DNA of 62,755 nucleotides from positions 1-62,755 of the forward strand of contig VGDP01000017.1 of the NCBI GenBank assembly GCA_016869675.1, in the 5' to 3' direction. The translations under genes and the position numbers were made by a program. The DNA is from Alphaproteobacteria bacterium. GTDB taxonomy: Bacteria; Pseudomonadota; Alphaproteobacteria; SP197. The number at the start of each line of letters is the position of its first letter. Position 1 is the stretch's first letter. The notes under the pieces were generated by a model. It did not search any database and was not told where the DNA came from. It saw nothing but the letters and a program-made list of their open reading frames with translations. This document shows, piece after piece, positions 29,930 through 47,941 of this stretch.

Positions 29930-29965
29930 GGCGCACCTTCCTTCCGTGGACGGGGAGACGCGACC

Positions 29966-30859: not shown

Positions 30860-30911
30860 GAGTCGTGGTCCCCCGCGGTCCGGCCAGGCCCACGCGGTCG
30901 CCAGGACGTCG

Positions 30912-31640
30912 TCATGCCGCCGATTCCCGTTCGAGGCCCAGATAGGCCTGGGCCAGGCCAGCGGAGCGCCTGAGCTCGGCCGCCGGTCCAGACATGACGA
31001 TCGCGCCGTTGGCCAGCACGTAGGCGTGGTCGGCGATGTCGAGCGCGCGGTCGACGTTCTGTTCGACCAGCAACAGCGTCAGGCCGCGCCGCTTCAGGTC
31101 GACAATCCGTTCGAAGATCGTGTCCACCACCTTTGGCGCCAGGCCTAGCGAGGGCTCGTCCAGCAACAGCAGGCGGGCGGCCGAGAGCAGCGCGCGGGCG
31201 AGCGCGAGCTGCTGCTGTTCGCCGCCCGACAGGCTGCCGGCCTTCTGGCCTCGCCGCTCGTAGAGCACGGGGAACAACGCGAACACCTGGTCGCGGTCGG
31301 CGGCGATGGTCGCGCGGTCGCGCCGGCCGACCGTGGCGACCACCAGGTTCTCGTCCACCGTCAGGTCGGCGAACACCCGGCGGCCTTCGGGCACCATGGT
31401 CATGCCGCGCCGCACGATGCGTTCGGGCGGCCAGCCCAGGATGTCCTCGCCGTCGAACGCGACGCGCCCCGACGCACCACGCGCCCAGCCCATCAGCGCG
31501 CGGAGCGTCGACGACTTGCCCGCCCCGTTGGGCCCGAGCAGCGCGACCAGGCCGCCGCGTTCGACCGAGATGTCGATGCCACGGACGGCCTGGACTGACC
31601 CGTAGGCGACGCCCAGGTCCTGGACGACCAGGGCGCTCAC
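30912..31640 (-). CDS. livF: Branched-chain-type ABC transporter ATPase (LivF)
   Basis: 242 aa from GTG 31638-31640. Walker A GPNGAGKS, Q-loop region MVPEGRRVFADLTVDENL (typical LivF), signature SLSGGEQQQLALARAL, Walker B LLLLDEPSLGL and EQNVDRAL. An upstream ATG at 31742 would overlap the binding-protein gene and is rejected. It partners the LivG domain of the fused permease-ATPase. Confidence 0.93.
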   Translation of the reverse strand: MSALVVQDLGVAYGSVQAVRGIDISVERGGLVALLGPNGAGKSSTLRALMGWARGASGRVAFDGEDILGWPPERIVRRGMTMVPEGRRVFADLTVDENLVVATVGRRDRATIAADRDQVFALFPVLYERRGQKAGSLSGGEQQQLALARALLSAARLLLLDEPSLGLAPKVVDTIFERIVDLKRRGLTLLLVEQNVDRALDIADHAYVLANGAIVMSGPAAELRRSAGLAQAYLGLERESAA

Positions 31641-31656
31641 GCTACGTGCGTCCGTG

Positions 31657-32829
31657 TCACGGCGCCGGGACGTCGGCCGCGGCCGGCTGCATGTTGCCCA
31701 GGTGCTCCTTGGCGCCGCCGGTGACACGCACCAGGGCGACATCGCGCAGCGCCACGTTGTTGGGCGTGTTGAGCGCGACCGTGCTGCCCGTCACGCCCTT
31801 GAAGTCGGTCATGGCGGCCAGTGCGTCGCGGATAGCCGCACCCTCGGTCGAACCGGCGGCCTCGATCGCCTTGGCGAGCGTCATGACGGCCTCGTGCGCC
31901 ACGGCCGCGAACGGCGCCACGTCGGTCTCGATGGCGCCGCCGTAGCGCGCCACATAGGCCTTGTAGAACGCCTCGAGGTCGCTGCCCGGGGCGGGGAAGC
32001 CGCCGGTGGTGAACACGACGCCCTCGGCGATCTCGCCCAGCGCCAGCGTGGTGCCGGAATCGATGCCGTCGCTGCCGATCACCGGCGTGGTGATGCCGGC
32101 CGCGCGGAGCTGCTTGATGAACGCCGGGAAGTCGGGCTCGTAGGCCGAGGTCATGATGACGTCGGGCTGCGGGTCGAGCGCCTTGATGTTGGTGACCTCG
32201 GCGCTGAAATCCTGCTGGCCGAACGCGTACGTGCCCTGGCCGACCAGCGCCCCGCCCATCTTCTGGAACGCGTCGGCGAAGTAGAGCGGCAACTTCTCGG
32301 TGTAGGGCGTGTCCGGCGAGATCAGGATGTAGGCGTTGGCGTAGCCCCGTTCGCGCGCGTACTTGGCCGAGACCGCCGCCTGCAGGTTGTCCGCCGTGTA
32401 AGTCTGGAACGTGTAGTCGCCGACCGCGGCGAAGAGCACCGGGGTCGACGCGCAGGGCGCGATGACCGGGATCTGCGCCGCCTGCGCCGGCTGGGCGAAG
32501 GCGATGGCCGGGTCCGCGTCGCACGGCGAGATCAGCGCCACCGCCCCGGCGGCGACCAATTCATTGCCGGCGACGGCGGCGGCGGCCGCCTCGGAGCGCA
32601 CGTCCTTCACCTGGAAGTCGATCATGTACTTGCCGGCGATGCCGCCGGCCGCGTTGATCTCGTCCACCGCCATCTGCGCGCCGTTGAGCACGAGCCCGTC
32701 GTAATACGCCAGGTAGCCGGTCAGGCCGCCGCCGAAGCCGATGACGATGGTCTCCTGCGCCTGGGCCAGCGGGGCCTGGCTCAGGGCCGCCGCCGCTGCC
32801 AGCGTGCCTAGGACGTGTCTGCGCTTCAT
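31657..32829 (-). CDS. ABC transporter substrate-binding protein (LivJ/LivK-like)
   Basis: 390 aa periplasmic type I binding protein. Signal peptide MKRRHVLGTLAAAAALSQ ends at AQA|Q; the mature part begins ETIVIGFGGGLTGYLAYYD and contains LNGAQMAVDEINAAGGIAGK, the family's usual opening, with two Rossmann-like lobes. The ligand pocket cannot be assigned; its place beside an FAD amine oxidase and gamma-glutamyl enzymes suggests an amine or amino acid. Confidence 0.9.
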   Translation of the reverse strand: MKRRHVLGTLAAAAALSQAPLAQAQETIVIGFGGGLTGYLAYYDGLVLNGAQMAVDEINAAGGIAGKYMIDFQVKDVRSEAAAAAVAGNELVAAGAVALISPCDADPAIAFAQPAQAAQIPVIAPCASTPVLFAAVGDYTFQTYTADNLQAAVSAKYARERGYANAYILISPDTPYTEKLPLYFADAFQKMGGALVGQGTYAFGQQDFSAEVTNIKALDPQPDVIMTSAYEPDFPAFIKQLRAAGITTPVIGSDGIDSGTTLALGEIAEGVVFTTGGFPAPGSDLEAFYKAYVARYGGAIETDVAPFAAVAHEAVMTLAKAIEAAGSTEGAAIRDALAAMTDFKGVTGSTVALNTPNNVALRDVALVRVTGGAKEHLGNMQPAAADVPAP

Positions 32830-32851
32830 GGATACCTCCTCTGTCGTTGGT

Positions 32852-34651
32852 TCAACCCTCGGAATTCGGTTCGGTCGGCCGATGCGCGCGGCCCAGATAG
32901 GCCTCGATCACCGCCGGGTCCTTCTGCACCACGGCGGGCGGACCCTCCGCGATGACCTGTCCGCGATCGAGCACGACGACCCGATCGCACAAGCGCATGA
33001 TCAGCCTGAGGTCGTGGTCGATGACCAGGAGACCGATCCCCGTCTCGTCGCGCAAGCGCCGCAGATCGTCAAGCAGCGCGTCTGACTCCGTCTCGTTCAT
33101 GCCGGCCGCCGGCTCGTCCAGCAACAGGAATCGGGGCGCCAGCGCAACCGCCCGCGCGATCTCGAGCCGGCGCTGCGGACCGTACGCCAGCGTCCCCGCC
33201 GGCCGGTGGGCCAAGGCGTCCAGGCCGAACTGCGCGAGCAGGGGCCCAGCGTCGAGGCCCGAGCGTCGCGCCGCCACCTCCACGTTCTCGTGCACGCTCA
33301 GGTTGCGGAACAGTCGGATGTTCTGGAACGTGCGGCCCAGGCCCCGGCGCGCCATGCGCCACGCCGGCCAGTCGGTGGCGTCCACGCCATCCAGGGTCAC
33401 GCGACCGGCATCGGGCCGCAGCACACCCGAGATCAGGCCGAGCAGGGTCGATTTGCCCGCGCCGTTCGGCCCAATCAATCCGACGATCTCGCCGGTCGCG
33501 AGGCGCAGGTCCACGCCGTCCACGGCGCGCAGACCGCCAAAGCTGCGGCCGATGCCTTCGGCGACCAGCGCGCCGGCGGCCTCGACGCGCGGCAGAGGGC
33601 CCGGCGCGACATGCGGTGAAGCGGCGGGCGCGACGAGTTCCTCGATCTCGGCGAAGCCGAGGAGGCCTTGGGGTCGTCGATACATGACCAGCAGGATCGC
33701 CAAACCGAGCCCCACCACGGTCAGGCCGAACACCGGCGGTACCGCCAGGCTGCCGATCGCGAAGCCTTCCTCCAGCCGGCGCAGGGCTTCGATCAGCACG
33801 GTGACGAGCACCGCCCCCGCCACGGCGCCCGAGACGCTGGCCATGCCGCCGACGATCAGCATGGCGAGCAGCGCGAACGTCAGATGGAAGTAGAAGGCCT
33901 TCGGCGTGATGACGCCGAGGAAATGGGCGTAGAGCGCCCCGGCGACGGCCGCGACCATGGCGCTCAGCAGCCACGACGACCAGCGGCGCGGCACGGCGCG
34001 CACACCGACCGCACCGGCCGCCGGCTCGTCCTCGCGCGTCGCGCGCAGCTCCAGCCCAATACTGCTGCCGCGAAAGACACGCGCGAGCACGATCGCCACG
34101 GCGGCCGCGGCAAACGCTGTCCACACGCCGACGGTGATCGGGATGCCGTAGAACGCTTGGCTGCCGCGCGTGATCTCGCGCGCGCCGATCAGCACGTTGT
34201 AGACGATAACCAGCAAGCCAAGCGTCGCGATCGACGCGGCAGCACCGTCCAGCCGAGCGATGACCATGCCCGTCAGCCCGGCTACCAACCCGACTCCCAG
34301 GACAACGAAGGCGAGCGACAGCGGCAGCGGCAGTTCGACCACCGCGAGGAACGCGGGCAACCCCGGCAGGTTTCCGGCCTTGAAGTTCGGCGCCACGGTC
34401 AGGATGGCGGACAGGTAGCCGCCCAGCGCCATGAAGCACGTGTGCCCGAAGCTGACGATACCGGCGTTGCCCACGTAGATGCCGATGCCAACCACGGCGG
34501 TCAGTGCCACGAAGAAGTTGACCACCGTCTGCGTCCACGCCGGATCGCCGGCGGCCGCCGTCGCGATCGCGACCAACGCCAGCGGCGCCACCAGGAACGC
34601 GGCGCCCCGGAGATCCCGCGCGGCGCGCGCGGCGTGCGTCGAAGCCGCCAT
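32852..34651 (-). CDS. Fused LivM permease - LivG ATPase
   Basis: 599 aa. Residues ~1-320 are a LivM-type permease (YVGNAGIVSFGHTCFMALGG, EIEL-like loop RATREDEPAAGAVGVRA, several membrane segments); residues ~355-590 are a LivG ATPase (Walker A GPNGAGKST, signature-like LAYGPQRRLEIARAVAL, Walker B FLLLDEPAAGMNETE, LVIDHDLRLIMRLCDRVVVLD). Such fusions are known in alphaproteobacteria. The ATG overlaps the stop of the upstream FAD oxidase (TGATG), so oxidase and transporter are expressed together. Confidence 0.92.
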   Translation of the reverse strand: MAASTHAARAARDLRGAAFLVAPLALVAIATAAAGDPAWTQTVVNFFVALTAVVGIGIYVGNAGIVSFGHTCFMALGGYLSAILTVAPNFKAGNLPGLPAFLAVVELPLPLSLAFVVLGVGLVAGLTGMVIARLDGAAASIATLGLLVIVYNVLIGAREITRGSQAFYGIPITVGVWTAFAAAAVAIVLARVFRGSSIGLELRATREDEPAAGAVGVRAVPRRWSSWLLSAMVAAVAGALYAHFLGVITPKAFYFHLTFALLAMLIVGGMASVSGAVAGAVLVTVLIEALRRLEEGFAIGSLAVPPVFGLTVVGLGLAILLVMYRRPQGLLGFAEIEELVAPAASPHVAPGPLPRVEAAGALVAEGIGRSFGGLRAVDGVDLRLATGEIVGLIGPNGAGKSTLLGLISGVLRPDAGRVTLDGVDATDWPAWRMARRGLGRTFQNIRLFRNLSVHENVEVAARRSGLDAGPLLAQFGLDALAHRPAGTLAYGPQRRLEIARAVALAPRFLLLDEPAAGMNETESDALLDDLRRLRDETGIGLLVIDHDLRLIMRLCDRVVVLDRGQVIAEGPPAVVQKDPAVIEAYLGRAHRPTEPNSEG

Positions 34652-35826
34652 CACGCGGTGTCGCCGAAGCGGGCCAGCGCGAAGTCATCGAGCGCCGGCG
34701 CCTGGCCCGCCGCGACCAACCGCGCCACCTCCTCGCCCACCGCCGGACCCAACTTGAAGCCGTGCCCGCTGGATCCGCAGATCATGTGCGCTCCGTCCAC
34801 CCCCGGCAGTCGATCGATGATCGGCAGGTCGTCGGGGCTCATGTCGTAGAGCCCCGCGTAGCCGCGCCGTACGCCGAGGCTCTCGAACGCCGGCACGCGC
34901 CGCACGATGTGGGTCAGGATCTCGGTGGACCCCGCTTGATCCACCAACTCGTCATAGGCGTCCGGATCATCGGCCTGGTCTGGACGCTCCACATCGCCAT
35001 GGCGCACCCCCGTGCCGCCGCCGGCCCACGAACCGACCAAAATCGTCCCCTCGCCTTCGGGCCGCGCGTAGTTGCACAGGATGTCGTCGCACCAGGCGAA
35101 GGGCAGAATCGCGCGGGCGCGCGCCGGGGCGTCAAGCACCGCCATGCCGTGCCGCTCGACCGTGATCGGCAGTTCGACGCCGAGCCGAGCGGCGATGGGC
35201 CGCGTCCACACCCCGGTCGCGAGCACAACCGCGTCGGCACCGATGCGCTCCCCACCGGTCGTCTCGATCCCCGCCACACGGCCCCGTTCCACCACCAACC
35301 GCATCATGGCCGTGTCCAGCCGGATACGCGCACCCGCCCTCCGGGCACCTTCCGCCAGGGCGTTCGCTGCGCCGTACGGATCCGCGTAGCCGCACGTGGG
35401 CTCCCAGACGCCGAGCGCGGCATCGTCGGTGACGATGCCGGGCGCCATGCGCGCCACCTCGGCCGGCGCGATCGCCTCGATGGCCGCGCCCTCGCCCTTG
35501 ATGCGCTCGACCGCCGCGCGCCATGCCGGTGCCGCCTCGGCGCCCACCAGCCACATCATCCCGACCGGACGGAACACGACCGGCGCGCCGATCGTGGCCG
35601 GCAGATCGCGCAGGATGGCCGTGCCGCGCGCCGCCAGCCGCGACAGCGCGGGCGCCATGTAGAACGCATGGCAGATCGCCGAGGACCGCCACGTGGGGCC
35701 ATACGCAGGATGACGCTTTTCCAACAGCGTCGTCGCCACGCCGCGCGCTGCCAGATGATACGCCGTGCTGACCCCGGCGATACCCGCCCCGACGACGACG
35801 ACCTCGGTTCCTCGCGCGTTCGCCAT
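34651..35826 (-). CDS. FAD-dependent amine/amino-acid oxidase (DAO family)
   Basis: 391 aa from ATG 35824-35826 with AAGGGG upstream. N-terminal VVVVGAGIAGVSTAYHLA binds FAD; the C-terminus HMICGSSGHGFKLGPAVGEE is the conserved end of sarcosine/glycine-oxidase-like enzymes. First gene of a leftward operon with a Liv-type transporter and GGT, directly behind the shared control region with rpiR. It probably oxidises an amino acid or N-substituted glycine that is imported or made by the pathway. The exact substrate is unknown. Confidence 0.87.
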   Translation of the reverse strand: MANARGTEVVVVGAGIAGVSTAYHLAARGVATTLLEKRHPAYGPTWRSSAICHAFYMAPALSRLAARGTAILRDLPATIGAPVVFRPVGMMWLVGAEAAPAWRAAVERIKGEGAAIEAIAPAEVARMAPGIVTDDAALGVWEPTCGYADPYGAANALAEGARRAGARIRLDTAMMRLVVERGRVAGIETTGGERIGADAVVLATGVWTRPIAARLGVELPITVERHGMAVLDAPARARAILPFAWCDDILCNYARPEGEGTILVGSWAGGGTGVRHGDVERPDQADDPDAYDELVDQAGSTEILTHIVRRVPAFESLGVRRGYAGLYDMSPDDLPIIDRLPGVDGAHMICGSSGHGFKLGPAVGEEVARLVAAGQAPALDDFALARFGDTA

Positions 35827-35860
35827 GGCCCCTTCACGGCTGCGGAGAGATGTTGCACGG

Positions 35861-35889
35861 ACGTTATCAAGGCGCCAATCCACCGTCAA
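35861..35889 (-). promoter_or_regulatory. Possible promoter of the leftward oxidase-transporter operon
   Basis: On the reverse strand TTGACG (35884-35889) and TAACGT (35861-35866) are 17 bp apart. The -10 is weak, but the position, 34 bp before the oxidase start and 32 bp downstream of the palindromic operator, suits a regulated promoter. Confidence 0.4.
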
Positions 35890-35921
35890 ATTGGTTGCAA
35901 CGTCGACGACGCCGTATCAAT

Positions 35922-35939
35922 CTGTAATCGATATTACAG
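35922..35939. promoter_or_regulatory. RpiR-type palindromic operator
   Basis: CTGTAATCGATATTACAG consists of 7-bp arms CTGTAAT/ATTACAG around CGAT. The half sites resemble the TGTAAT...ATTACA operators known for HexR, an RpiR-family repressor. It lies 16 bp before the GTG of the RpiR gene and in front of the divergent oxidase operon, so it probably controls both. Confidence 0.75.
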
Positions 35940-35955
35940 GCTGCGCGGGTTCGCC

Positions 35956-36867
35956 GTGACCCAGGGCATCACCGTCCGGGACCTGTTGACCAGCGGGAAG
36001 GTCAGCCTGACGCGCGCCGAACGGCGTGTCGCCGGCGCCCTGCTCGCCAACTACCCGACGGCCGGTCTGGCCACCGTCGCCCAGCTCGCCGACGAGGCGA
36101 AGGTCAGCGACCCCACGGTGGTGCGCCTGGTGTCGAAGCTGGGGTTCGAGGGCTATGGCGCGTTTCAGCGCACACTGCTGCGCGAGGTCGAAAGCCGCAT
36201 GCGTTCGCCGCTGGCCATGCTGCCCGCCCGCCGGCGCCAGCTGCATCGCCGCGATCTCTACGGCCGGTTCATGCGCAACGCGGGCGACAGCATCGAGGCG
36301 GCCATGGGCCTGGTGCTGCCGGCGGACTTCGAGACCGCCGTCGAACTGCTGACCGATCCGCGTCGCCGCGTGCATTGCGTGGGCGGCCGGTTCAGCCGCT
36401 TCCTCGCCGCCATGCTGCGCGCGCACCTGTGCCAGATGCGCCGCCACACGGCCGTGATCGACGGCACGCACTCCGACATGATCGACGGGCTGGTCGAGAT
36501 CGACCGCCATGACGTCGTTGTCGTGTTCGACTACCGCCGCTACCAGGAGGACGTGGTCGCCTTCGCCGGCGAGGCGCACGAGGCCGGCGCCGCCATCGTC
36601 CTGATGACCGATCCCTGGAAATCGCCGATCGCGGCTTTCGCCGACGTGACCCTGATCGCCCCGGTCGAGGTGCTGTCGCCCTACGACACCATGGTGCCGG
36701 CCATGGCGCAGGTCGAGGCGCTGGTGGCAGCGTGCGTCGCGCGGCTCGCCGATCGCGCGCGCGGCCGTCTGCGCCGGCTCGAGGCGCTGCGCCGCCGCCA
36801 CCGCGTCACCGTGGACGCCCGTCACGATGCCCCGACGCGCCGGCGGGCGGCGGCGCCGACACCATGA
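35956..36867 (+). CDS. RpiR-family transcriptional regulator
   Basis: 303 aa from GTG 35956. The N-terminal RpiR helix-turn-helix domain covers ~1-80 (LTRAERRVAGALLANYPTAG, DEAKVSDPTVVRLVSKLGFE) and a SIS domain follows (~130-280; VHCVGGRFSRFLAAMLR, DVVVVFDYRRYQED). SIS domains of this family bind phosphosugars or other small effectors. The last ~35 residues are a basic, Arg-rich tail. It is the first gene of the rightward operon, overlapping the aminotransferase start, and faces its presumed operator. Confidence 0.9.
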   Translation: MTQGITVRDLLTSGKVSLTRAERRVAGALLANYPTAGLATVAQLADEAKVSDPTVVRLVSKLGFEGYGAFQRTLLREVESRMRSPLAMLPARRRQLHRRDLYGRFMRNAGDSIEAAMGLVLPADFETAVELLTDPRRRVHCVGGRFSRFLAAMLRAHLCQMRRHTAVIDGTHSDMIDGLVEIDRHDVVVVFDYRRYQEDVVAFAGEAHEAGAAIVLMTDPWKSPIAAFADVTLIAPVEVLSPYDTMVPAMAQVEALVAACVARLADRARGRLRRLEALRRRHRVTVDARHDAPTRRRAAAPTP

Positions 36868-38192
36868 CCGACGCCCGCGCCGATCTTCTGACCCGCGACG
36901 CGCGTGTCATGGCCGCGATCCAGAAGCTGCGCTTCTCGCCCGTGGCGGTGACCGGCGGCAAGGGTTGCTCGTTGATCGAGGCCGGCGGCCGGGAGCTCCT
37001 GGACCTGTCGGCGAGCTGGGGTTCGGCCAGCCTGGGCCACGGCCATCCGGCCTGGGTCGACGCGATCGCCCGCGCCGCGGCGAACCCCGCCGGGGCGAGC
37101 ACCTTGTCGGCAACCACCGCGCCGGCGGTGGCGCTGGTGGAACGCCTGCTTGCCCTGGTTCCCGGCGTGGGCGACCGGCGCGTCTGGCTCGGCCATTCGG
37201 GCTCGGACGCCAACGAGGCCGCGGCACGCGCCATCGCGGCCGCCACCGGCCGGCACCGCTTCATCGCCTTCACCGGCGCCTACCACGGCGGTAGCGCGGG
37301 ATCGATGGCGATCTCGGGCCACGCCGTGCAGGCGCACGCCGCGCGCGCACCCGGCCTGGTGCTGATCCCCTACCCCGACGTCTACCGCGAGGAGCCCGCC
37401 GCCGACCCCGGCGCGGCGGTGCTGGCCGAGCTCGATCGCCGCTTCGCCACCGACGTCGACCCGCGCGAAGTCGCCGCCCTGTTCATCGAACCGGTCCAGA
37501 GCGACGGCGGACTGCTGGTGCCGCCGCCGGGTTTCCTGCGCGCGCTGGCCGATCGCTGCCGGGCGCACGGCATCCTGATCGTGTGCGACGAGGTCAAGGT
37601 CGGGCTGGGGCGCAGCGGCCTGCTGCACGCCTTCGCCCACGACGGCCTGTCGCCCGACGTGGTCACGTTCGGCAAGGGCCTGGGCGGCGGCCTGCCGCTG
37701 TCCGCCGTGGTCGGGCCGGCGGCGATCCTGGACCACGCGACGGCCTTCGCCATGCAGACCTTGCACGGCAATCCGGTCACAGCGGCGGCGGGGCTCGCGG
37801 TGCTCGACACCATCGAGGCCGAGGGCCTGGTCGCCAACGCTGCCGCGATGGGTGCGCGTCTGCAGGCGGGCCTGCGCGACTTGGCGCAGCGTCATGCCTT
37901 GATCGGCGACGTGCGCGGGCGTGGCCTGGTGATCGGCGTCGAGCTGGTCACGGACCGCGCGTCCAGGACGGCCGCGCGCGATGCCGCCGCCAAGGTTGTG
38001 GTGCGCGCGCTCGAACACGGCGCGGTGGTCTACTACGTTGGCAAGCGCTCCAACGTGCTGGAGCTGACACCGCCCCTGGTGATCGACGCGGATGCCGTCG
38101 ACCGCGCGGTGGCGATCCTGGGGCGCGCCATAAGCGACGTGGAACGCGGCCTGGTTCCCGATTCGGCGATCGCCGGGTTCACGGGCTGGTAG
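36864..38192 (+). CDS. Class III PLP aminotransferase
   Basis: 442 aa. Family landmarks: GHGHPAWVDAI, WLGHSGSDANEAAARAI, AYHGGSAGSMAISGH, LIVCDEVKVGLGRSG (PLP-binding Asp) and FGKGLGGGLPLS with the Schiff-base lysine. The usual DEVQTG is DEVKVG here. It is related to 4-aminobutyrate and other omega-aminotransferases. Translational coupling (ATGA) to the RpiR gene suggests it acts on the pathway's amine or on glutamate/GABA products. Confidence 0.9.
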   Translation: MTDARADLLTRDARVMAAIQKLRFSPVAVTGGKGCSLIEAGGRELLDLSASWGSASLGHGHPAWVDAIARAAANPAGASTLSATTAPAVALVERLLALVPGVGDRRVWLGHSGSDANEAAARAIAAATGRHRFIAFTGAYHGGSAGSMAISGHAVQAHAARAPGLVLIPYPDVYREEPAADPGAAVLAELDRRFATDVDPREVAALFIEPVQSDGGLLVPPPGFLRALADRCRAHGILIVCDEVKVGLGRSGLLHAFAHDGLSPDVVTFGKGLGGGLPLSAVVGPAAILDHATAFAMQTLHGNPVTAAAGLAVLDTIEAEGLVANAAAMGARLQAGLRDLAQRHALIGDVRGRGLVIGVELVTDRASRTAARDAAAKVVVRALEHGAVVYYVGKRSNVLELTPPLVIDADAVDRAVAILGRAISDVERGLVPDSAIAGFTGW

Positions 38193-38206: not shown

Positions 38207-39556
38207 ATGGCGCGTGCGCGGACACCGAAACGCCCTCGCGGCGGGCCTTCGGGCGACGAGCTGGTTCTGCTGGCATGGAACGATCTTGTCGCCATGACGC
38301 GCGGACGCGCCGTCCCTGTCTCGGAGTACGCCTCGCGCCGCGCCGTCGGGATCAACTGGGCGATGGCGGGCCACGCCCTGACCCCGTTCGAGGACATCGC
38401 CGACAACCCCTGGTGTTCGATGGACGAGGTCCACATGACCCCCGCCGAGGAGACCCATGTCCGCTTCGAGGTCGGCAACGGCCAGCCGGCGTTCAACATG
38501 GCGCTGTGCGACGCCATCACCACCGACGGCGGCACGTGGGATTCCTGCCCGCGCGGATTCCTCAAGGGGGCCATCGCCGACCTGCGCAGGCGCCACGGGC
38601 TCGAGCTCCTGGCCTCACCCGAGCTCGAGTTCCAATTGGTCGGTGGCACGCTGCCCGAGGCGACGCCCTTCTCGCTCGAAGCGTTCCGGCTCATGCCCGA
38701 CCTGGGCCAGCGGGTCGTCGAGGCGCTGCGCGCCACGGGTTGCCAGCCCGAGACCTACGAACCGGAGTACGGCGTCGGCCAGTACGAGTTCAGTTGTGCG
38801 CCGGCCTTCGGCGTCGCGGCGGCCGACCGCATCGTGCTCGCCAAGGAGGTGGTGCGCGAGGTAGCGCGCCGCGCCGGCCTGCGGGCGAGCTTCACGCCCA
38901 AGCCCTACCCGAACCGCCCGGGCAACGGCGCCCACATCCACCTCAGCCTGTGGTCCGGCGGCAAGCCCGCCACCCACGACCCGTCGCGTCCCGGTGGCAT
39001 GACCGAGAAGGCGGCGCGCTTCGCCGCCGGCATCGTGCGGCACATGCCGGCCCTGTGCGCCTTCGCCGCGCCCAGCGTGCCGTCGTACTACCGGCTCGGC
39101 CCACACCACTGGAGCGCCGGCTACGCGTGCATGGGCGTGACCAACCGCGAGGCCGCGCTGCGCGTCTGCCTGCCGTCCAAGGGCACGGCGGCGTCGGTGC
39201 ACCGACGCTTCAACCTGGAGTACCGCCCGGCCGACGGCACCTCCAGCCCGTACCTGGCGCTGGGCGCGCTGGTGCGGGCGGGCTTGGCCGGTCTCGACGA
39301 GAAACTGCCGCTGCCGCCGCTCGTCCAGGAGGACCCGCACGACATGGGTGAGGCCCGCCGCCGCGAGCTCGGCATCCGGCCCCTGCCCACCTCGCTCGGC
39401 GAGGCGTTGGATGCACTGCGCGCCGACCCGGTGGTCTGCGGCTGGTTCGCGCCCAACCTGCTCGACACGTTCATCGCGGTGAAGCGCAAGGAGATCGCGC
39501 TCTGCGAGGGCCTGAGCCCCAACGACATCTGCGAGAAGTACCGCAATGCCTATTGA
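38207..39556 (+). CDS. Glutamine-synthetase-like gamma-glutamyl-amine ligase
   Basis: 449 aa, GS-III/PuuA-like. Active-site features survive: SPELEFQL (Glu pair), GQYEFSC (Glu), NGAHIHLSLWS (ammonia/amine-site His) and a divergent RRFNLEYRPADGTSSPY (Arg-x-Glu-x-Arg-like). The N-terminal beta-grasp domain is reduced. Ligases of this type join glutamate to putrescine, isopropylamine, ethanolamine or other amines using ATP, not to ammonia. Downstream amidohydrolase overlaps by 11 bp. GAGG lies upstream of the ATG. Confidence 0.87.
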   Translation: MARARTPKRPRGGPSGDELVLLAWNDLVAMTRGRAVPVSEYASRRAVGINWAMAGHALTPFEDIADNPWCSMDEVHMTPAEETHVRFEVGNGQPAFNMALCDAITTDGGTWDSCPRGFLKGAIADLRRRHGLELLASPELEFQLVGGTLPEATPFSLEAFRLMPDLGQRVVEALRATGCQPETYEPEYGVGQYEFSCAPAFGVAAADRIVLAKEVVREVARRAGLRASFTPKPYPNRPGNGAHIHLSLWSGGKPATHDPSRPGGMTEKAARFAAGIVRHMPALCAFAAPSVPSYYRLGPHHWSAGYACMGVTNREAALRVCLPSKGTAASVHRRFNLEYRPADGTSSPYLALGALVRAGLAGLDEKLPLPPLVQEDPHDMGEARRRELGIRPLPTSLGEALDALRADPVVCGWFAPNLLDTFIAVKRKEIALCEGLSPNDICEKYRNAY

Positions 39557-40679
39557 TATCGATCGTCCGCTTGTCGACCACCACTGCCACGGGCTGGTGC
39601 CCAAGACCCTGGAACGGGCCGCGTTCGAGAGGCTGATCTCCGAGAGCTTCGTCGCCGCGCCCAAGGGCACCTCGCATTTCGACGCGCCGGTCGGCTTGGT
39701 GATCCGTGCGAAATGCGCGGCCTTGCTCGACCTCGACCCCTTCCCCGACCCCGATGCCTACCTGGCGCGGCGCGCCACGCTGGGCGCCGCCGAGGTCAAT
39801 CGCCGGTTCGTCCAGGCAGGCGGCTATGGGCAGCTCCTCGTTGACACCGGGTTCCGGGGTGGCGACATCCTGACACCGGAGGGCATGGCCGACGCGACCG
39901 GAATCCCGTGCTGCGAGGTCGTGCGCATTGAGGCCGTGGCCGAGCGCGTCGGCCGTTCAGGGGTCTCGGCCGCCGGCTTCGCGCGCGCCTTCGCCGACGC
40001 CCTTGCCGAGGCGGCGCGCGACGCGGTCGGCCTGAAGTCGATTGTCGCCTACCGTGGCGGCTTCGCCTTCGACCCGGCCGCGCCGACCACGGCCGAGGTC
40101 GAGGCCGCCGCCGGGCCGTGGCTCAAGCGCATGGCCTCGGGCCAGGGCCGCATGGACGACATGACCCTGATGCGCCACGGCCTTTGGGTCGCGGCCGAGC
40201 TCACCCGCGCGCGCGCCATGCCGATCCAGTTTCACGTCGGCTACGGCGACCGCGACGCCAAGATCCATCTCAACAACCCGTCGCTGCTGATGGATTTCCT
40301 GCAGCACCTTGACGACATGGGCGTCAACGCCACGCTGCTGCACTGCTACCCCTATCAGCGCGAGGCCGGCTACCTGGCCGAGGTCTTCCCCAACGTCTAC
40401 TTCGACGTCGGCGTGATCCTGAACTACACGGGCGCCATGTCGGCGACGATCCTGGGCGAGGCGCTGGAGCTCGCACCGTTCACCAAGCAACTCTACAGCT
40501 CGGACGCGTTCGGCGTGGCCGAGTTCTACTACCTGGGCGCCGTGCTGTTCCGCCGCGCGCTGCAGCAGCATCTGGACCGCTGGATCGCGGACGGCTTCTG
40601 TTCGGTGCGCGAAGCCGACCGCATCGTCGCGATGATCGCGCACGACAACGCCCGGCGCATCTACCCGCTCGACCACTGA
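39546..40679 (+). CDS. Amidohydrolase of the FluG N-terminal type
   Basis: 377 aa metal-dependent hydrolase (amidohydrolase_2). LVDHHCHGLVP near the N-terminus holds the HxH metal ligands; PIQFHVGYGDRD, LLHCYPYQREAGYLAEVFPNV and LYSSDAFGVAEFYYLGA carry the later His and Asp ligands. In fungal FluG this domain is fused to a GS-like ligase, and here the two genes overlap by 11 bp, so it probably hydrolyses the gamma-glutamyl product of the ligase or acts with it in one pathway. Confidence 0.88.
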   Translation: MPIDIDRPLVDHHCHGLVPKTLERAAFERLISESFVAAPKGTSHFDAPVGLVIRAKCAALLDLDPFPDPDAYLARRATLGAAEVNRRFVQAGGYGQLLVDTGFRGGDILTPEGMADATGIPCCEVVRIEAVAERVGRSGVSAAGFARAFADALAEAARDAVGLKSIVAYRGGFAFDPAAPTTAEVEAAAGPWLKRMASGQGRMDDMTLMRHGLWVAAELTRARAMPIQFHVGYGDRDAKIHLNNPSLLMDFLQHLDDMGVNATLLHCYPYQREAGYLAEVFPNVYFDVGVILNYTGAMSATILGEALELAPFTKQLYSSDAFGVAEFYYLGAVLFRRALQQHLDRWIADGFCSVREADRIVAMIAHDNARRIYPLDH

Positions 40680-40681
40680 CC

Positions 40682-41026
40682 ATGCTTGGCCCGGACGAGC
40701 CCGCGCCATACGAGGTGGTCAACGCCGGGGGCCGGGCGCCGGTGCTGCTGGTCTGCGATCACGCGAGCCCGCGCATTCCCACGGTGCTCGGCGATCTGGG
40801 GCTGGCGGGCGACGATCGGATACGCCACATCGCCTGGGACATCGGCGCCGACGCCTCGCACCTGTTTCGCGCGGGCATTTCCACCGCCATTTACGGGCCC
40901 GGCAAGGTGAACGATATCAACCCCCTCGACGAGAGCATGGCGGTCGCCGACGCGGTCGGCGCCGCGCGCACCTACGCCCTCGCCATCCTCGAAATCTGTG
41001 GCCGCGACGGCGGAGTCCGCGCATGA
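40682..41026 (+). pseudogene. Chimera: N-formylglutamate amidohydrolase start joined to M20 peptidase end
   Basis: The first ~60 residues (FEVVN-like YEVVNAGGRAPVLLVCDHAS, then DLGLAGDDRIRHIAWDIGA) match the N-terminus of N-formylglutamate amidohydrolases. From about residue 63 the sequence switches to GISTAIYGPGKVNDINPLDE, which looks like the C-terminus of M20 deacylases (acetylornithine deacetylase type). A full gene of either kind would be 260-430 aa; this is 114. It looks like an in-frame deletion that fused two neighbouring genes. It is still coupled to the GMC gene (ATGA), so it may be translated, but neither active site is complete. Confidence 0.65.
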
Positions 41027-42687
41027 GCACGTTCGACTACATCGTCGTCGGAGCCGGATCGGCCGGCTGCGCGCTGGCGGCGCGTCTGGCTGAGCAGCGC
41101 GACGCGCGTGTCCTGCTCATCGAGGCGGGTGGCGGCGGTCGGCACCTGTTCGTGCGCATGCCGGCGGCCAACGGCTTCGTCTTCGGCAAGCCGCAGTTCG
41201 ACTGGAGCTTCTACACCGAGCCGCAGCCCGAACTGAACGGCCGGCGCGTCTACTGGCCGCGCGGCCGTGGCCTCGGCGGATCCTCGACGATCAACGGCAT
41301 GATCTACATCCGCGGCAACGCGCGCGATTACGACGGCTGGCGCCAGCTCGGCCTGGAGGGCTGGGCCTACGCCGACGTGCTGCCCTACTTCCGCCGCTCC
41401 GAGGGCAACCCGCGCGGCGACGACGGCTACCACAGCGCCGACGGGCCCCTGAAGACCAGCCGCGCCGGCAACGTCCAGCCGATCGACGAGATCTTCGTCG
41501 CGGCCGCCCAGCAGGCGGGCTACCCGCTCAACCCGGACTTCAACGGCGCAAGCCAGTTCGGCTGCGGCATCTACGACATGACCGTGCGCCACGGCCGCCG
41601 CTCGACCACGGCGCTCTCCTACCTGAGCCAACAACCCAACCTGACAGTCATGACCGGAGCGCTCGCGCTCGGCTTGGCTGTCGAGAACGGCCGGGCCGTC
41701 GGCGTGCGGCTGGCGCGCGATGGCGCGACCGAAACCGTGCGCGCCTCGCGCGAGGTGATCGTCGCCATGGGCGCTATCGGCTCGCCCCAGTTGCTCCTGC
41801 TGTCGGGCATCGGTCCGGCCGACGACCTGCGCCGGCTCGGCATCCCCGTCGTCGCCGACGTACCGGGCGTCGGGGCGAACCTGCACGATCACCCGAACGT
41901 GCCGGTGCAGTACGTGTGCACCAAGCCCGAACTGAGCTTCACGCGCTACATGCGCGCCGATAAGGCGATCGGCATCGGCCTGCGCTACCTGCTGACGCGC
42001 GACGGGCCGGCGGCGGCACCGTTATGGAGCGCCGGCGCGTTCAAGGCGCTGTCGCCCGGCGCCGACGTGCCGGCGCTCCAGGTCTTCTTCACGCCCATGG
42101 TGATTGTCGAGGACCCCAAAGGCTCGACCAGCGTCAAGGCGCGCTCCACCTTCGGCGCTGGCATCTTCACGCGTGGCAAGTACGCGATTCCCGGATTCCA
42201 GTTCGACGTCAACCAGATGCACCCGCGCAGCCGCGGCACGCTCAGCCTGCGCTCGACCGATCCGCGCGACCACCCCCTGATGGACCCGCGCTATCTGACC
42301 GAGGAGATCGACCGGCGCGAGATGGTCGAGGCCGTGAAGGCAGGGCGCGAGATCGTGAGCCAGAAGGCGTTCGATCCGATCCGGGGCGAGGAGTTGCGGC
42401 CCGGGCCCGCCGTGCGCAGCGACGCCGATATCCTGGAGGCGGTACGCAACAGCCTGATCTCGGGATATCACCCCGTGGGCACATGCAAGATGGGCGTGGC
42501 GAGCGATCCCATGGCGGTGGTCGACGCCAGCCTGCGCGTGCGCGGCGTCGAGGGCCTGCGTGTGGTCGATGCCTCGATCATGCCGATCCTGGTCACCGGC
42601 AACACCAACGGCCCCACCGTGATGATCGCCGAGAAGGCGGCCGACATGATCCTGGGCCGGCCACCCCTGCCCCGCGCCGAGGTGTGA
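41023..42687 (+). CDS. GMC-family FAD alcohol dehydrogenase (choline-dehydrogenase-like)
   Basis: 554 aa. Signatures: [17 protein letters not shown] (FAD), [19 protein letters not shown] (GMC motif 1), [18 protein letters not shown] (motif 2), and the catalytic His-Asn pair in [11 protein letters not shown] and [17 protein letters not shown]. Enzymes of this group oxidise primary alcohols such as choline. In this operon, after a gamma-glutamyl ligase, it could oxidise the hydroxyl of a gamma-glutamylated amino alcohol (inference). Confidence 0.92.
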
Positions 42688-43193
42688 GCGCGACCGTCCG
42701 TCGCTTGCGCGGCCCGCGCCGGGTCGCGATCGCACGCGAAATCCTCGAATCGTTGCCGGCGTGGTTCGGCACCCGACGCGCGCGCGAGGCCCACATCCAG
42801 CAGGCCGGACGCGCGCCCATGTACGTGTGCGAGGACGGCGCGGGCATCGTCGGGTTCCTGGTGCTCGAGCGCCTCATGACGGCGGCGTGGGAGATCGCGG
42901 TCATGGCCGTGCGGCCCGATCGCCACCGGCGGGGCGCTGGCCGCGCCCTGGTCGCGGCGGCGGCGGCCCACGCGGCGGCGCGCGGTGCCACCCTCCTGAC
43001 CGTCAAGACGCTCGCGCCCTCCTCGCCGGATCGCGCCTACGCCCGCACGCGCGCCTTCTACCGCGCCATGGGGTTCGTGCCGCTGGAGGTGTTCCCGACG
43101 CTGTGGGGCCGCGACAACCCTTGCCTGCTGATGGCCCTGCCCCTGGTGCCGCCGCACCGGCGCCGGACAACGAGCGCGCTTAGCCGCCCTTGA
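42684..43193 (+). CDS. GNAT-family N-acetyltransferase
   Basis: 169 aa from GTG 42684, overlapping the GMC stop (GTGA). The acetyl-CoA loop is [18 protein letters not shown], followed by [13 protein letters not shown] and [14 protein letters not shown]. Substrate unknown. It closes the rightward operon; its stop lies 14 bp inside the end of the convergent MoaD-like gene. Confidence 0.82.
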
Positions 43194-43431
43194 GCGGTGG
43201 CATGATCGCCAGCTCGTCGCCCTCGGCCAGGCGCCGGTTCGGGCGTTCGGCGGTCGCCAGAACCGTGCCGTTCAGCGCCACCAGATAGCGGTCGGCCATG
43301 GGCAGGCCGAGCTGGCTCATGACATCGACGGCCGTGGCACCGTCGGCCACGTCGAGCGGCGCGCTGAGGCCCTTGGCCCCGGCCGGCAGGTATTTCTGCA
43401 GGATGCCGGCGGTCTTGAACGTGATCCTCAC
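43180..43431 (-). CDS. aorD: MoaD/ThiS-like ubiquitin-fold protein of the AOR module
   Basis: 83 aa from GTG 43429-43431, with the beta-grasp pattern and the functional C-terminal PPLKGG tail ending in Gly-Gly. MoaD-like proteins carry sulfur to the pterin of the tungsten/molybdenum cofactor. It overlaps the FAD subunit gene (GTGA). In known AOR operons of Aromatoleum a MoaD-like gene follows the structural genes, so this is probably a dedicated cofactor protein; the gene symbol follows that naming. Confidence 0.82.
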
Positions 43432-44675
43432 GGCACCGCCTTGGTGAGGTCGAGGTAGGCGTTCATCACCTGGTGCGGATCCCGTTGCAGGGCCTTCTTC
43501 CACGGCCCGAGCGGAAGCCCCGTCTGAACCAGGCCTCGGATGACGCCCACATGCTGGGTCAGGCCGAGCGCGAGCGCGCCGACGACACGGTCATCCTTGA
43601 AGCACAGGCGCAGGTAGCAGAAGTGGTCCGGGTCGCTCGCCTCGGCGATCTCGCCGCCGGGCAGGCCTTGCCAGTGGCCGAACGAGCTGGAAATCAGGCC
43701 CAGCGTGTTGAGCACGTTCATGGACAGGCTGCCGCGGTAGTGGCTGGGCACGCCGGCCATGTTCAGGGCGGCGACACGCCCGTGTTCGCTCGCGGTCGGC
43801 TGGATCGCGTGCACCTCGGGCTTGCCGGTGATCAGCTCGGGCCCCTGGGCCACGTCGCCGGCGGCGAAGATGTCGGGCACGCTGGTGCGCAGGCCGTGAT
43901 CCACCAGGATGCCGAACTCGGTCTCCACTCCGCTGCCCTTCAGGAACTCGACGTTGGGCGCCACGCCCGTGGCGCACACCACGAGGTCGGCCTCCAGGGC
44001 GGCGCGGCGCCCGATGGCCAGCCGGAACCCGGTCTTGGTCTTCTCGATCGCCTCGACGCGCGTCGAGGTCAGGACCTTGACGCCACGCCCCTCGCACCAA
44101 CGCTTGATCATGTCCCCGCCCTGGCGGTCCATCATGCGCGCAACCATGCGGTCGGCCATCTCGACCACGGTCAGGTCGACTTTGCGCGCGGCCAGCGCCT
44201 CCAGGATGATGCAGCCGATGAAGCCGGCGCCCATCAGAACCACGCGGCTCCTGGGCTTGGCCTTGCGCGCGATCGCCGCGGCGTCCGCCAGCGTCCAGCA
44301 CGACTCGATCCCCGGCAGGTCGATCCCCTTGATCGGCGGCCGCACGGGGCGCGAGCCGGTCGCGACCAGCAGCTTGTCGTACTTGACCTTGGCTCCGTCA
44401 TCGAGCGTGAGCACGCGCGACTTGGCCGCGACGCGGGTGACGCGCCGGCCCTTGACCACCTTGATGCCATGCGCGCGGTAGTGGCCCGTGCCATGGCGCA
44501 GGTGCGTGCCGGCCGGCTCGATGTCGCCGGCCAGCAGGTAGGGGATCGCCATCCGGGAATACGGCGCGGCCGGCTCGTCGCCGATCAGCGTCACCGCGCC
44601 CGACGGATCGGCGCGACGCAGTGTCTCGGCCGCGATCACGCCAGCTGGGCCGGCGCCGACGACCACATAGTCCAT
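43428..44675 (-). CDS. aorC: FAD/NAD(P)H oxidoreductase subunit of aldehyde oxidoreductase (AorC-type)
   Basis: 415 aa pyridine-nucleotide-disulphide-oxidoreductase-like protein. FAD site YVVVGAGPAGVIAAETL (residues ~3-19), NAD(P) site VVLMGAGFIGCIILEAL (~145-161), and the second FAD motif VPDIFAAGDVAQG. In AorABC enzymes this subunit exchanges electrons between the Fe-S subunit and NAD. The start ATG 44673-44675 has GGAGA upstream. Confidence 0.87.
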   Translation of the reverse strand: MDYVVVGAGPAGVIAAETLRRADPSGAVTLIGDEPAAPYSRMAIPYLLAGDIEPAGTHLRHGTGHYRAHGIKVVKGRRVTRVAAKSRVLTLDDGAKVKYDKLLVATGSRPVRPPIKGIDLPGIESCWTLADAAAIARKAKPRSRVVLMGAGFIGCIILEALAARKVDLTVVEMADRMVARMMDRQGGDMIKRWCEGRGVKVLTSTRVEAIEKTKTGFRLAIGRRAALEADLVVCATGVAPNVEFLKGSGVETEFGILVDHGLRTSVPDIFAAGDVAQGPELITGKPEVHAIQPTASEHGRVAALNMAGVPSHYRGSLSMNVLNTLGLISSSFGHWQGLPGGEIAEASDPDHFCYLRLCFKDDRVVGALALGLTQHVGVIRGLVQTGLPLGPWKKALQRDPHQVMNAYLDLTKAVP

Positions 44676-44749
44676 GCTCGTTCTCCGTGCCTTGAAACGA
44701 ACGCAGGGGCGGATCGCCGACCCACCCCTGCCCTCAACCGATCCGAACG

Positions 44750-46609
44750 CTACAACCCGAGCCGCGCGATGGTCTGGTTGGTCGGCTTGCCATCGGTCGT
44801 CCAGCCGCGCGCCTTGTAGTACTCGGGCAGCATCTTGCCGAGCTCGCTGACCTTGCCCTTCGCCGTCCCGCTGGGCGCCGGCGTCTCCAGCAGGCGCTTG
44901 GGCAGGGTGTCGTCCTTGGCAGTCAACCCGGCCTTCAGGTTGAACATGCGCTCCAGGTTCCACACCCGCTCGCCGGTCTCGTAGAGGCGCTTCTCATCCC
45001 ACGAACCCTCGCACGCGGCGTCGACCTGGGCGGCGAAGTCGGGGACACCCCAGGCCGCGGTGACGAACAGGCAGAGGCCCGTGGAATCGATCGCCGCTAC
45101 CTTGTCCTGGGACTTTTTGACCGGCACCGCCTTGCCGCTGCCGGTCTGGTCCTCCATGTCCTCGGCGAAGACGTCGTGCTTCAGGTGGCACGCGCCGCGG
45201 TTCGACGTGGCGTAGCCCAGCCCCATGCCCTGGAGCGCGCGGCTGTCGTAGCCGGCGAACTCCTGGCCCTTGACGCCCATGAACAGCTCAGGGTGCCCGT
45301 ACTTCTCGCACATACGCTTCGAGCCGAGCCCGAGAATCTTGCCGAAGCCTTCGCCCTTGCCGGTCTTCTCGGCCATCACGGTCAGGGCCTCGGCGTTGCC
45401 GAACTTCAGCTCGATGCCGTCGGTGTCCTTCTTGGTGATCGCGCCGATGTCGTAGAGTTCCATCGCCGCGGCCAGCGTCACGCCGAACGAGATCGGATCC
45501 ATGCCGTGCTCGTTCATCATGTAGCCGGCGAAGGTCAGCGCGTCGATGTCGTCGACGCCGACCACCGGGCCGAAGGCGTACGCGGTCTCGTACTCTAGCC
45601 CGCCCGAGGCGAGCCAGTACTCCTTGCGGTTGACGATCGAGAAGTGCTGCTTGTCGATGTGGGCGATGCGCCCGCAGGCGATCGTGCAGCCGAAGCACGC
45701 CTTGTTGGCTACCAGGTTGGTGTGGCCATGGGCGTTCGGCGTCTTCATCGCCTGCGCGTTGATGTGCTCGACGCCCTCGAACTGGACCTCGCGGAAGTTG
45801 CGCGTGGGCAGGCCGCCGAACTGCTGCATCACGTCAATCATGGCGTTGGTGCCGTACTCGGTCAGCTCCTTGCGCCCGGTCGATTCCGCCAGCTTCTGCT
45901 TGGCGTCGCCCACCACCTTCATGAAGCGCTTGGGGTCCTTGACCGTCACGCCCTTGGAACCGTGGCAGGCGACCGCCTTCAGGTTCTTCGAGCCCATGAC
46001 GGCGCCGACGCCCGAACGGCCCGCCGCGCGGTGCAGGTCGTTGACCACGCACGCGTACAGCACGCCCTTCTCACCCGCCTTGCCGATCGAGGCGATCTTC
46101 AGAAGCGGGTTCTGGTGCTTCGCCTTGATCAGCTCCTCGGTCTGCCAGACCGTCTTGCCCCACAGCCCGTCGGCCGGCAGGATCTCGACCTTGTCGTCGA
46201 TGATGTGCAGGTAGACGGGCTTCTTGGCCCGGCCCTTGACGATCAGCAGATCGTAGCCGGCGAACTTAAGTTCCGCGCCGAACTTGCCGCCCGAGTTCGA
46301 GCAGGCGATGGCGCCGGTCAGCGGTCCCTTGGTCACCACCGCGTAGCGGCCGCTGGTCGAGGCCATGGTGCCGGTCAGCGGCCCCGTCGCGAAGATCAGC
46401 ACGTTCTCCGGGCTCATCGCGTCGGCGCGCGGGTTCATCATCTCGTAGAGGTACTTGGTCGCCAGGCCGCGCTCGCCCAGGTACTGCTGGGCCCATTCCA
46501 TGTTCAGCGGCTCGGCCTTGGCCTCGCCCTTCGTCAGGTCGACCACCAGCACCTGGCCCTGCCAGCCGCCGGCGGCCTTGCTCTTCGCCTTGGTCTTGCC
46601 CTTTGCCAT
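44750..46609 (-). CDS. aorB: Tungsten-dependent aldehyde oxidoreductase, catalytic subunit (AorB-type)
   Basis: 619 aa of the AFOR family. The N-terminus GQVLVVDLTKGEAKAEPL and YLGERGLATKYLYEM are typical, followed by GPLTGTMASTSGRY, AGRSGVGAVMGSKNLKA and the [4Fe-4S] ligands Cys305, Cys308, Cys312 (CFGCTIAC) and Cys513 (STGLCLF). It binds W- (or Mo-) bis-pyranopterin and oxidises aldehydes to acids, possibly also the reverse. The first ~15 residues are a basic, Lys-rich extension. Flanked by its Fe-S and FAD partners. Confidence 0.94.
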   Translation of the reverse strand: MAKGKTKAKSKAAGGWQGQVLVVDLTKGEAKAEPLNMEWAQQYLGERGLATKYLYEMMNPRADAMSPENVLIFATGPLTGTMASTSGRYAVVTKGPLTGAIACSNSGGKFGAELKFAGYDLLIVKGRAKKPVYLHIIDDKVEILPADGLWGKTVWQTEELIKAKHQNPLLKIASIGKAGEKGVLYACVVNDLHRAAGRSGVGAVMGSKNLKAVACHGSKGVTVKDPKRFMKVVGDAKQKLAESTGRKELTEYGTNAMIDVMQQFGGLPTRNFREVQFEGVEHINAQAMKTPNAHGHTNLVANKACFGCTIACGRIAHIDKQHFSIVNRKEYWLASGGLEYETAYAFGPVVGVDDIDALTFAGYMMNEHGMDPISFGVTLAAAMELYDIGAITKKDTDGIELKFGNAEALTVMAEKTGKGEGFGKILGLGSKRMCEKYGHPELFMGVKGQEFAGYDSRALQGMGLGYATSNRGACHLKHDVFAEDMEDQTGSGKAVPVKKSQDKVAAIDSTGLCLFVTAAWGVPDFAAQVDAACEGSWDEKRLYETGERVWNLERMFNLKAGLTAKDDTLPKRLLETPAPSGTAKGKVSELGKMLPEYYKARGWTTDGKPTNQTIARLGL

Positions 46610-46658
46610 CGTTCTCGCTCCTCGGCGCCCGTGCGGCGCCCTTGTTGCGTCGGCGCGC

Positions 46659-47132
46659 TCAGGCGCGCGGCTGGTTGTCCGTCTTGGCGGCCCACGCCTT
46701 CATGCGCTCGTAGCCCGTCCAATCGCTGTCGACGAACGTGATCGCGCCAGTGGGGCATGCCGCCGCGCACTGCGGGTCGCCGCCGCACAGGTCGCACTTG
46801 GCGACCTTGCCGGAATCGCGGTTGTAGTTGATCGTCCCGAAGGGGCACGCGATGGTGCACACCTTGCAGCCGACGCAGACGTCCTCCTTCACCTCGACCG
46901 CGCCCGTGGTCGGGTTGCGCGCCAGCGCCTCGACCGGGCAGGCGTGCAGGCACCACGCCTCGGCGCACTGCGTGCAGGTGTAGGGAATCGCGCGGCGGCC
47001 GTGCTCGAACTCGAACACCTTGATGCGCGACTTGGCCGGGTTGAACGACCCTTCGTGCTCGAACGAGCAGGCCATCTCGCACTGCAGGCAGCTCGTGCAC
47101 TTCTCCGGTTCGATAAGCAGCGACTTCTGCAT
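46659..47132 (-). CDS. aorA: Polyferredoxin subunit of aldehyde oxidoreductase (AorA-type)
   Basis: 157 aa with sixteen cysteines in four clusters: 12/15/18/22, 53/56/61/65, 86/89/92/96 and 113/116/122/126, enough for four [4Fe-4S] clusters, as in HycB-type electron-transfer subunits. It wires AorB to AorC, 49 bp upstream of aorB. The start ATG 47130-47132 has GGGAGG upstream. There is no signal peptide, so the complex is cytoplasmic. Confidence 0.92.
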   Translation of the reverse strand: MQKSLLIEPEKCTSCLQCEMACSFEHEGSFNPAKSRIKVFEFEHGRRAIPYTCTQCAEAWCLHACPVEALARNPTTGAVEVKEDVCVGCKVCTIACPFGTINYNRDSGKVAKCDLCGGDPQCAAACPTGAITFVDSDWTGYERMKAWAAKTDNQPRA

Positions 47133-47328
47133 GGTCCCTCCCGTTGTCGTGAAGCGGCGGCGCCGACACCCCCCCGTACGCTTCCACCGGGCAAGTCTAT
47201 CCCATCGGGCCGGACTGTAGACAGTGGTACTTTCGCCTGGGATCGTCGCCCACCGCCACCAGACACCTCCGTTCATCGCCATTGATGCTAAGCTCAGCGA
47301 TGGCGCACCGATCGTTCCAGACAGCGCC

Positions 47329-47941
47329 GTGGGGGCCGTGGGGCTCTGCCTGTCCTTGATGTTCGTGGCTGGGTCGGCGACCGCGCCCATGGGCGATGCG
47401 TGGGCCGTCGCCAAGGACGGCGTCAACCTGCGCGAAGGCCCCGGGAAGGATCACCCCGTGCTGGCCACCCTGGCGCTCGGCCAGACGGCCAGCGAAGTGG
47501 GACGCGAGGGTGACTGGGTCCAGATCCACCTCGACGGCGCGGACGCCCCGTCGGGCCGGGTGCACCGTTCCCTGCTGACGCCGGCGCCCACCGCCGCCGC
47601 CGGCCAAACCGCGCCTTCGACCGGGCTGGGCCCGATCAAGGCCCTGGAATCGACGGTCGACCAGCTCAACACCTTAGGGCGCAACCAGGGCTACGCCTAC
47701 TTCGCGTCCGTGCGCGATCTGGGCAGCGGCGGGCGCCGCCGTGGTCGCTACCCTGGAGTGGCTCGCCCTGCCCGAGGACTTCCGCGCCAGCAATTTCGCC
47801 GCGCTCGAAAGCATCTGGCGTGGCGCGGCCGGCGCGCTCACGCCGGCGTGGCTGCGCATCCTCGGGCCCGATGGCGGCGTCGTGATGGAATCGGACTCAC
47901 AGGTCGCCGGCGCAGCCACCGAGCCGGAACCCGAAGCCTAG
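47329..47941 (+). pseudogene. SH3-domain periplasmic protein with a frameshift
   Basis: The first part has a hydrophobic, signal-like start (VGLCLSLMFVAGSATA) and a bacterial SH3 domain (WAVAKDGVNLREGPGKDH, ASEVGREGDWVQIHL). Around 47721-47723 (GGG run) reading must shift by one base to continue into AAAGAAVVATLEWLALPEDF and on to EPEPEA at 47941. Both halves look like parts of one protein of ~205 aa. It is either a true pseudogene or one extra base in the sequence. The start codon is uncertain (GTG 47329 or GTG 47224). Confidence 0.55.

Follow-up and report, generated by a model that had tools for sequence, protein, structure and literature searches.

N-formylglutamate amidohydrolases (FGases; PF05013), represented by Atu2144 (PDB 2ODF), and M20 deacylases of the ArgE/DapE type are the enzymes closest to the locus described here. 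In the window, by which we mean the whole stretch of 62,755 nucleotides that was analysed, a single open frame of 114 codons at 40682-41026 (+) runs without stops. Its first 56 residues are like those of an FGase, including the motifs CDHAS and HIAWDIGA, and its last ~52 residues are like the end of an ArgE/DapE-type deacylase. In contrast to the FGase, it misses the remaining ~205 residues with SRLV.DCNR, H(T/S)(M/F)TP and E.R.DL, as seen in the alignment with 2ODF; in contrast to the deacylase, it misses the first ~340 residues and thereby the catalytic head and the dimerisation domain, with domain limits taken from a relative.

The earlier note had proposed that two enzyme families are joined in frame within this ORF, which both the profiles and the intact relatives of the two halves bear out. 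The Pfam FGase match covers residues 20-58 of the ORF and positions 2-39 of the 219 in the profile (E=4e-4); the full ~220-residue domain is not present by this profile, and the match falls under the curated cut-off because the domain is truncated. NCBIfam models of M20 deacetylases/desuccinylases weakly match residues 41-107 (E=0.007-0.16), only with their C-terminal ends, and there is no match to Pfam M20 (PF01546/PF07687), the catalytic and dimerisation domains being absent. Residues 1-56 are 52-71% identical to intact FGase relatives, among them the 262-aa FGase of relative genome G005 (67-70%; E=1.7e-21 for one genome). Residues 57-108 are ~60-64% identical to M20 relatives, namely 61-63% to the protein of genome G004 (E=1.3e-17) and 63% to that of a Rhodospirillales MAG (L143), and share the motif TDASH..AGI.TAIYGPGK..DIN..ES. 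Both halves correspond to pieces of longer genes that are intact in other genomes, and among the loci examined this is the only ORF scoring with both family profiles. On these sequence comparisons, the predicted product is confirmed as a chimera of an FGase N-terminus and an M20 deacylase C-terminus.

By codon alignment the join falls at codon 56/57 (40847-40850); the site suggested before, near 40870, lies some 20 nt too far downstream and has to be given up. The FGase side reads GAC ATC GGC GC., the M20 side TTC GGC ACC GAC GCC TCG CAC, and the chimera across the join GAC ATC GGC GCC GAC GCC TCG CAC. To judge from the relatives, the parent genes seem to have shared an imperfect 9-bp repeat, TCGGC[G/A]CCG. 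Short near-repeats like this one serve RecA-independent deletions. A random join falls in frame one time in three, and the open frame is therefore by itself no sign of selection.

The chimera is embedded in a row of genes on one strand (Table 1), in the order RpiR, aminotransferase, GS, Amidohydro_2 and FGase head. It starts 2 nt past the Amidohydro_2 stop; translational coupling with the GMC gene, as proposed in the earlier note, would act beside a GGAG motif at 41012-41015 that belongs to the GMC start itself. The FGase half begins right behind the amidohydrolase stop codon and the M20 half ends across the GMC start codon, as would be expected of two in-line members of an operon. The GS-like and Amidohydro_2 genes overlap (38210-40679), and the pair, kept in this order in 11 family genomes, looks like fungal FluG, an amidohydrolase plus a gamma-glutamyl ligase, divided over two genes; in FluG the GS-like and amidohydrolase activities are known to belong together (PMC6478659). 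Divergent from the RpiR gene lie genes for a gamma-glutamyltranspeptidase and an ABC transporter of the branched-chain type (28322-36867), a neighbourhood which suggests that an amine or an amino-acid-like compound is taken up and gamma-glutamylated. At 43180-47426 there follow genes for an aldehyde ferredoxin oxidoreductase (AOR), an NAD(P)/FAD reductase and a MoaD/ThiS-like protein, and a further gene at 46659-47426. This cluster is conserved in 5/5 family genomes examined (AOR 74-87% identical); the GNAT gene 3' of MoaD is on the same strand in G004 and on the opposite strand in the window.

Table 1. Features of the chimera and its operon in the window.
Feature	Position	Strand	Basis
RpiR-type regulator (HTH_6 + SIS), operon gene 1, start approximate	35932..36867	+	domains
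Class III aminotransferase; intact FGase directly 3' of it in relatives	36864..38192	+	profile, relatives
GS-like protein, gamma-glutamyl ligase type	38210..39556	+	Pfam, NCBIfam, relatives
Amidohydro_2 protein; paired with GS gene in 11 family genomes	39546..40679	+	Pfam, relatives
FGase-derived part: first 56 residues of a hydrolase of the FGase family (PF05013)	40682..40849	+	profile, relatives, codon alignment
Fusion junction within imperfect repeat TCGGC[G/A]CCG	40847..40850	+	codon alignment; placed from relatives
M20-derived part: last ~52 residues, with tail, of an M20 deacylase like ArgE/DapE	40850..41026	+	profile, relatives, codon alignment
ATGA overlap, chimera stop / GMC start	41023..41026	+	sequence
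GMC oxidoreductase (choline dehydrogenase-like)	41023..42687	+	Pfam, NCBIfam
GNAT acetyltransferase; adjoins AOR/MoaD cluster in G004 too	42684..43193	+	domain, G004 comparison

Two full hydrolase genes had been postulated for the ancestral operon, and for the FGase this stands. An intact FGase gene (about 260-300 aa) lies directly 3' of the class III aminotransferase gene in eight same-family genomes; on contigs spanning both pairs, aminotransferase-FGase and GS-Amidohydro_2 are on opposite strands, a few kb apart, with the branched-chain-type ABC transporter and the RpiR regulator around them. These intact copies, which occupy the same gene neighbourhood as the FGase half of the chimera, together with the order GS-FGase-aminotransferase in Ensifer and others, indicate that the FGase is an old member of a gamma-glutamyl-ligase/aminotransferase cluster. 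In some relatives (L027:1435-2577, L050-L052), a D-serine dehydratase/alanine racemase-like PLP enzyme follows the FGase and an isochorismatase-like hydrolase follows the amidohydrolase; neither follows at these places in the window. A literature search for this FGase/GS cluster type found no paper. The proposal that a deformylase was lost is doubtful, as the FGase travels with GS genes of the gamma-glutamyl-ligase type, and a hydrolase acting on gamma-glutamyl or related amides is, we infer, equally likely. At best, the lost chemistry may have been amide hydrolysis by an FGase-type enzyme that served a gamma-glutamylation pathway; a deacylase as its second part is a guess.

The other half of that postulate, a full M20 gene ahead of the GMC gene, found no counterpart. 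M20 genes of the chimera's type are absent from all family clusters fetched, and none of the GMC orthologues examined lies behind this M20; they are sited elsewhere, that of G004 behind an FtsY-like gene (named by eye). A close M20 relative occurs in one of 16 family genomes (G004, 62%), only G058 adds another (44%) among 385 genomes of the class, and genome_contigs adds that of L143 (63%), where two genes named by eye as hydantoinase/oxoprolinase-like precede it; these relatives occupy unrelated gene contexts. Neither an intact FGase-M20-GMC operon nor a genome with an FGase beside this M20 was found, and a phylum-wide search with the entire M20 (E<=1e-60) returned nothing, which is weak evidence as the search was run without a positive control. 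The best NCBIfam match of the L143 protein is TIGR01910, under its cut-off. The rare M20 subfamily (L143:6984-8195, L024:7114-8049) bears the C-terminal motif DIN...ES, presumably with Asn where M20 enzymes usually have the C-terminal His ligand. In the G004 copy the first part is out of frame, and we rejected this gene as donor context because it lies outside the cluster with its N-terminal part in a different frame. Likewise rejected was the AOR/MoaD neighbourhood as a link between the L143 M20 and the window: the AORs are only 36% identical, and M20 and GMC are absent near the orthologous AOR cluster in five relatives, which speaks against such a link.

Widespread homologues, which would make the chimera a genuine small family, were looked for in relatives, the plasmid matches listed and viral contigs, and none was found. 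No second chimera occurs in 96 relatives, among 385 class genomes (searched with the M20 half), in the best 80 of 540 genome_contigs relatives, in viral contigs or among the 15 plasmid matches listed, and no homologue of the whole 114 aa is present among the matches listed. Two seemingly spanning candidates, L103 (query 1-108) and L116 (query 1-82), were rejected as ordinary FGases aligned via gaps; the plasmid matches (~80% of the query; 36-42% identity) are mostly annotated as FGases and look like gapped ordinary FGases too. The case for uniqueness among the genomes, plasmid matches listed and viral contigs searched is strong, not exhaustive. The genome itself has a full-length FGase paralogue (46%, contig C8) and several M20 genes (at most 32%), none of which completes either half. 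The missing FGase C-part has no close match there (best 46%, another intact gene), nor has the missing M20 N-part (best 32%, another intact gene), which indicates that the pieces were lost and not misplaced.

The FGase half retains 19/19 columns invariant over 17 FGase rows (one genome being represented twice) and 23/26 columns invariant among eight family orthologues. The two relatives of the M20 half match each other at 67% identity and the chimera at 60-63%. The M20 half has lost 6/37 shared residues as compared with 3/34 and 4/35 in these two, and the proline of the AGIPT motif is gone. Without detectable decay, the fusion is either young or constrained, and a neutral remnant would keep all 19 FGase columns only if young. 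Since the fusion lacks the FGase motifs past residue 56 as well as all of the M20 head and dimerisation domain, enzyme activity is unlikely, and the predicted product, with no complete catalytic site, probably does nothing as an enzyme.

We consider it reasonably probable that the chimera is a lineage-specific deletion scar from an FGase-M20 tandem. The earlier operon would have run ...GS - amidohydrolase - FGase - M20 - GMC, and a deletion of ~1.6-1.7 kb between near-repeats at FGase codon 56 and about M20 codon 340 would have removed the bodies of both genes; the in-frame joint of 114 codons would remain as an open, translated bridge from the amidohydrolase gene to the GMC gene. We infer the position of an M20 gene next to the FGase here, as well as the deletion size, the repeat-mediated mechanism, translation and lack of activity. 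An ancestral FGase-M20-GMC operon is plausible, albeit undocumented among the clusters examined, and against a deletion speak the want of any genome with FGase-this M20 or this M20-GMC adjacency, the stop-free frame with all its invariant FGase columns, and the reliance on a single assembly. The main rival is a rearrangement joint, by which a segment with the M20 tail, GMC and perhaps GNAT came from elsewhere and broke the FGase at codon 56. The scattered locations of the GMC orthologues examined, the rarity of the M20 relatives and their placement elsewhere agree with it, and the GNAT gene by the AOR/MoaD cluster has its relative orientation flipped in G004, which implies that this boundary was rearranged. 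Yet the M20 tail and GMC must then have moved together, and the break must be in frame within a tight operon, for which a single deletion is simpler; we regard such a rearrangement as rather unlikely.

A wrong joining of two real loci in assembly or binning might be suspected in a draft of 97 contigs with one genome of the genus in the comparison. However, the two sides have in common ~9 bp with a mismatch, far under usual assembly k-mers; an assembler would not be misled by an imperfect repeat of just 9 bp. Moreover, the missing gene parts are absent from other contigs, the flanking genes form one consistent operon, and GC by codon position runs unbroken over the join, so that we hold an artefact to be improbable. 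Even less credence is due to the idea that the FGase and M20 pieces now form a novel small protein under selection, such as a fragment with a binding or regulatory role. Its open frame, conserved motifs, well-kept N-half (52-71% identity) and coding-like GC3 would suit that reading, but no homologous chimera turned up anywhere searched, the catalytic parts are absent, and the C-half has evolved slightly faster than its relatives, with its AGIPT proline lost; an AlphaFold model from the single sequence (pLDDT 35) is uninformative. Most far-fetched is a newborn selected protein, assembled from two Zn-hydrolase ends and active on or within the operon's gamma-glutamyl pathway.

The locus shows that one lineage has lost the FGase of this gamma-glutamyl-ligase cluster. 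Annotation pipelines should call the 114-aa ORF neither a formylglutamate hydrolase nor a deacylase. The nearest analogue is a run of RpiR, GS, FGase and M20 genes in Mesorhizobium sp. LHD-90 (L140); there, in contrast to the window, both hydrolases are intact, no GMC gene follows, and the M20 is ~35% identical to the chimera's tail. Literature on bacterial deletion-fusion genes offered nothing directly usable. In comparison with bacterial deletion-fusion pseudogenes, the parents of the chimera are deduced from other genomes and the parental M20 is not seen at the site, but the likeness extends to two truncated genes being fused in frame across a short near-repeat, and in a single lineage. The locus is not a new system; it illustrates neatly how an ordinary scar of two genes, most likely from a deletion, can leave an operon open.
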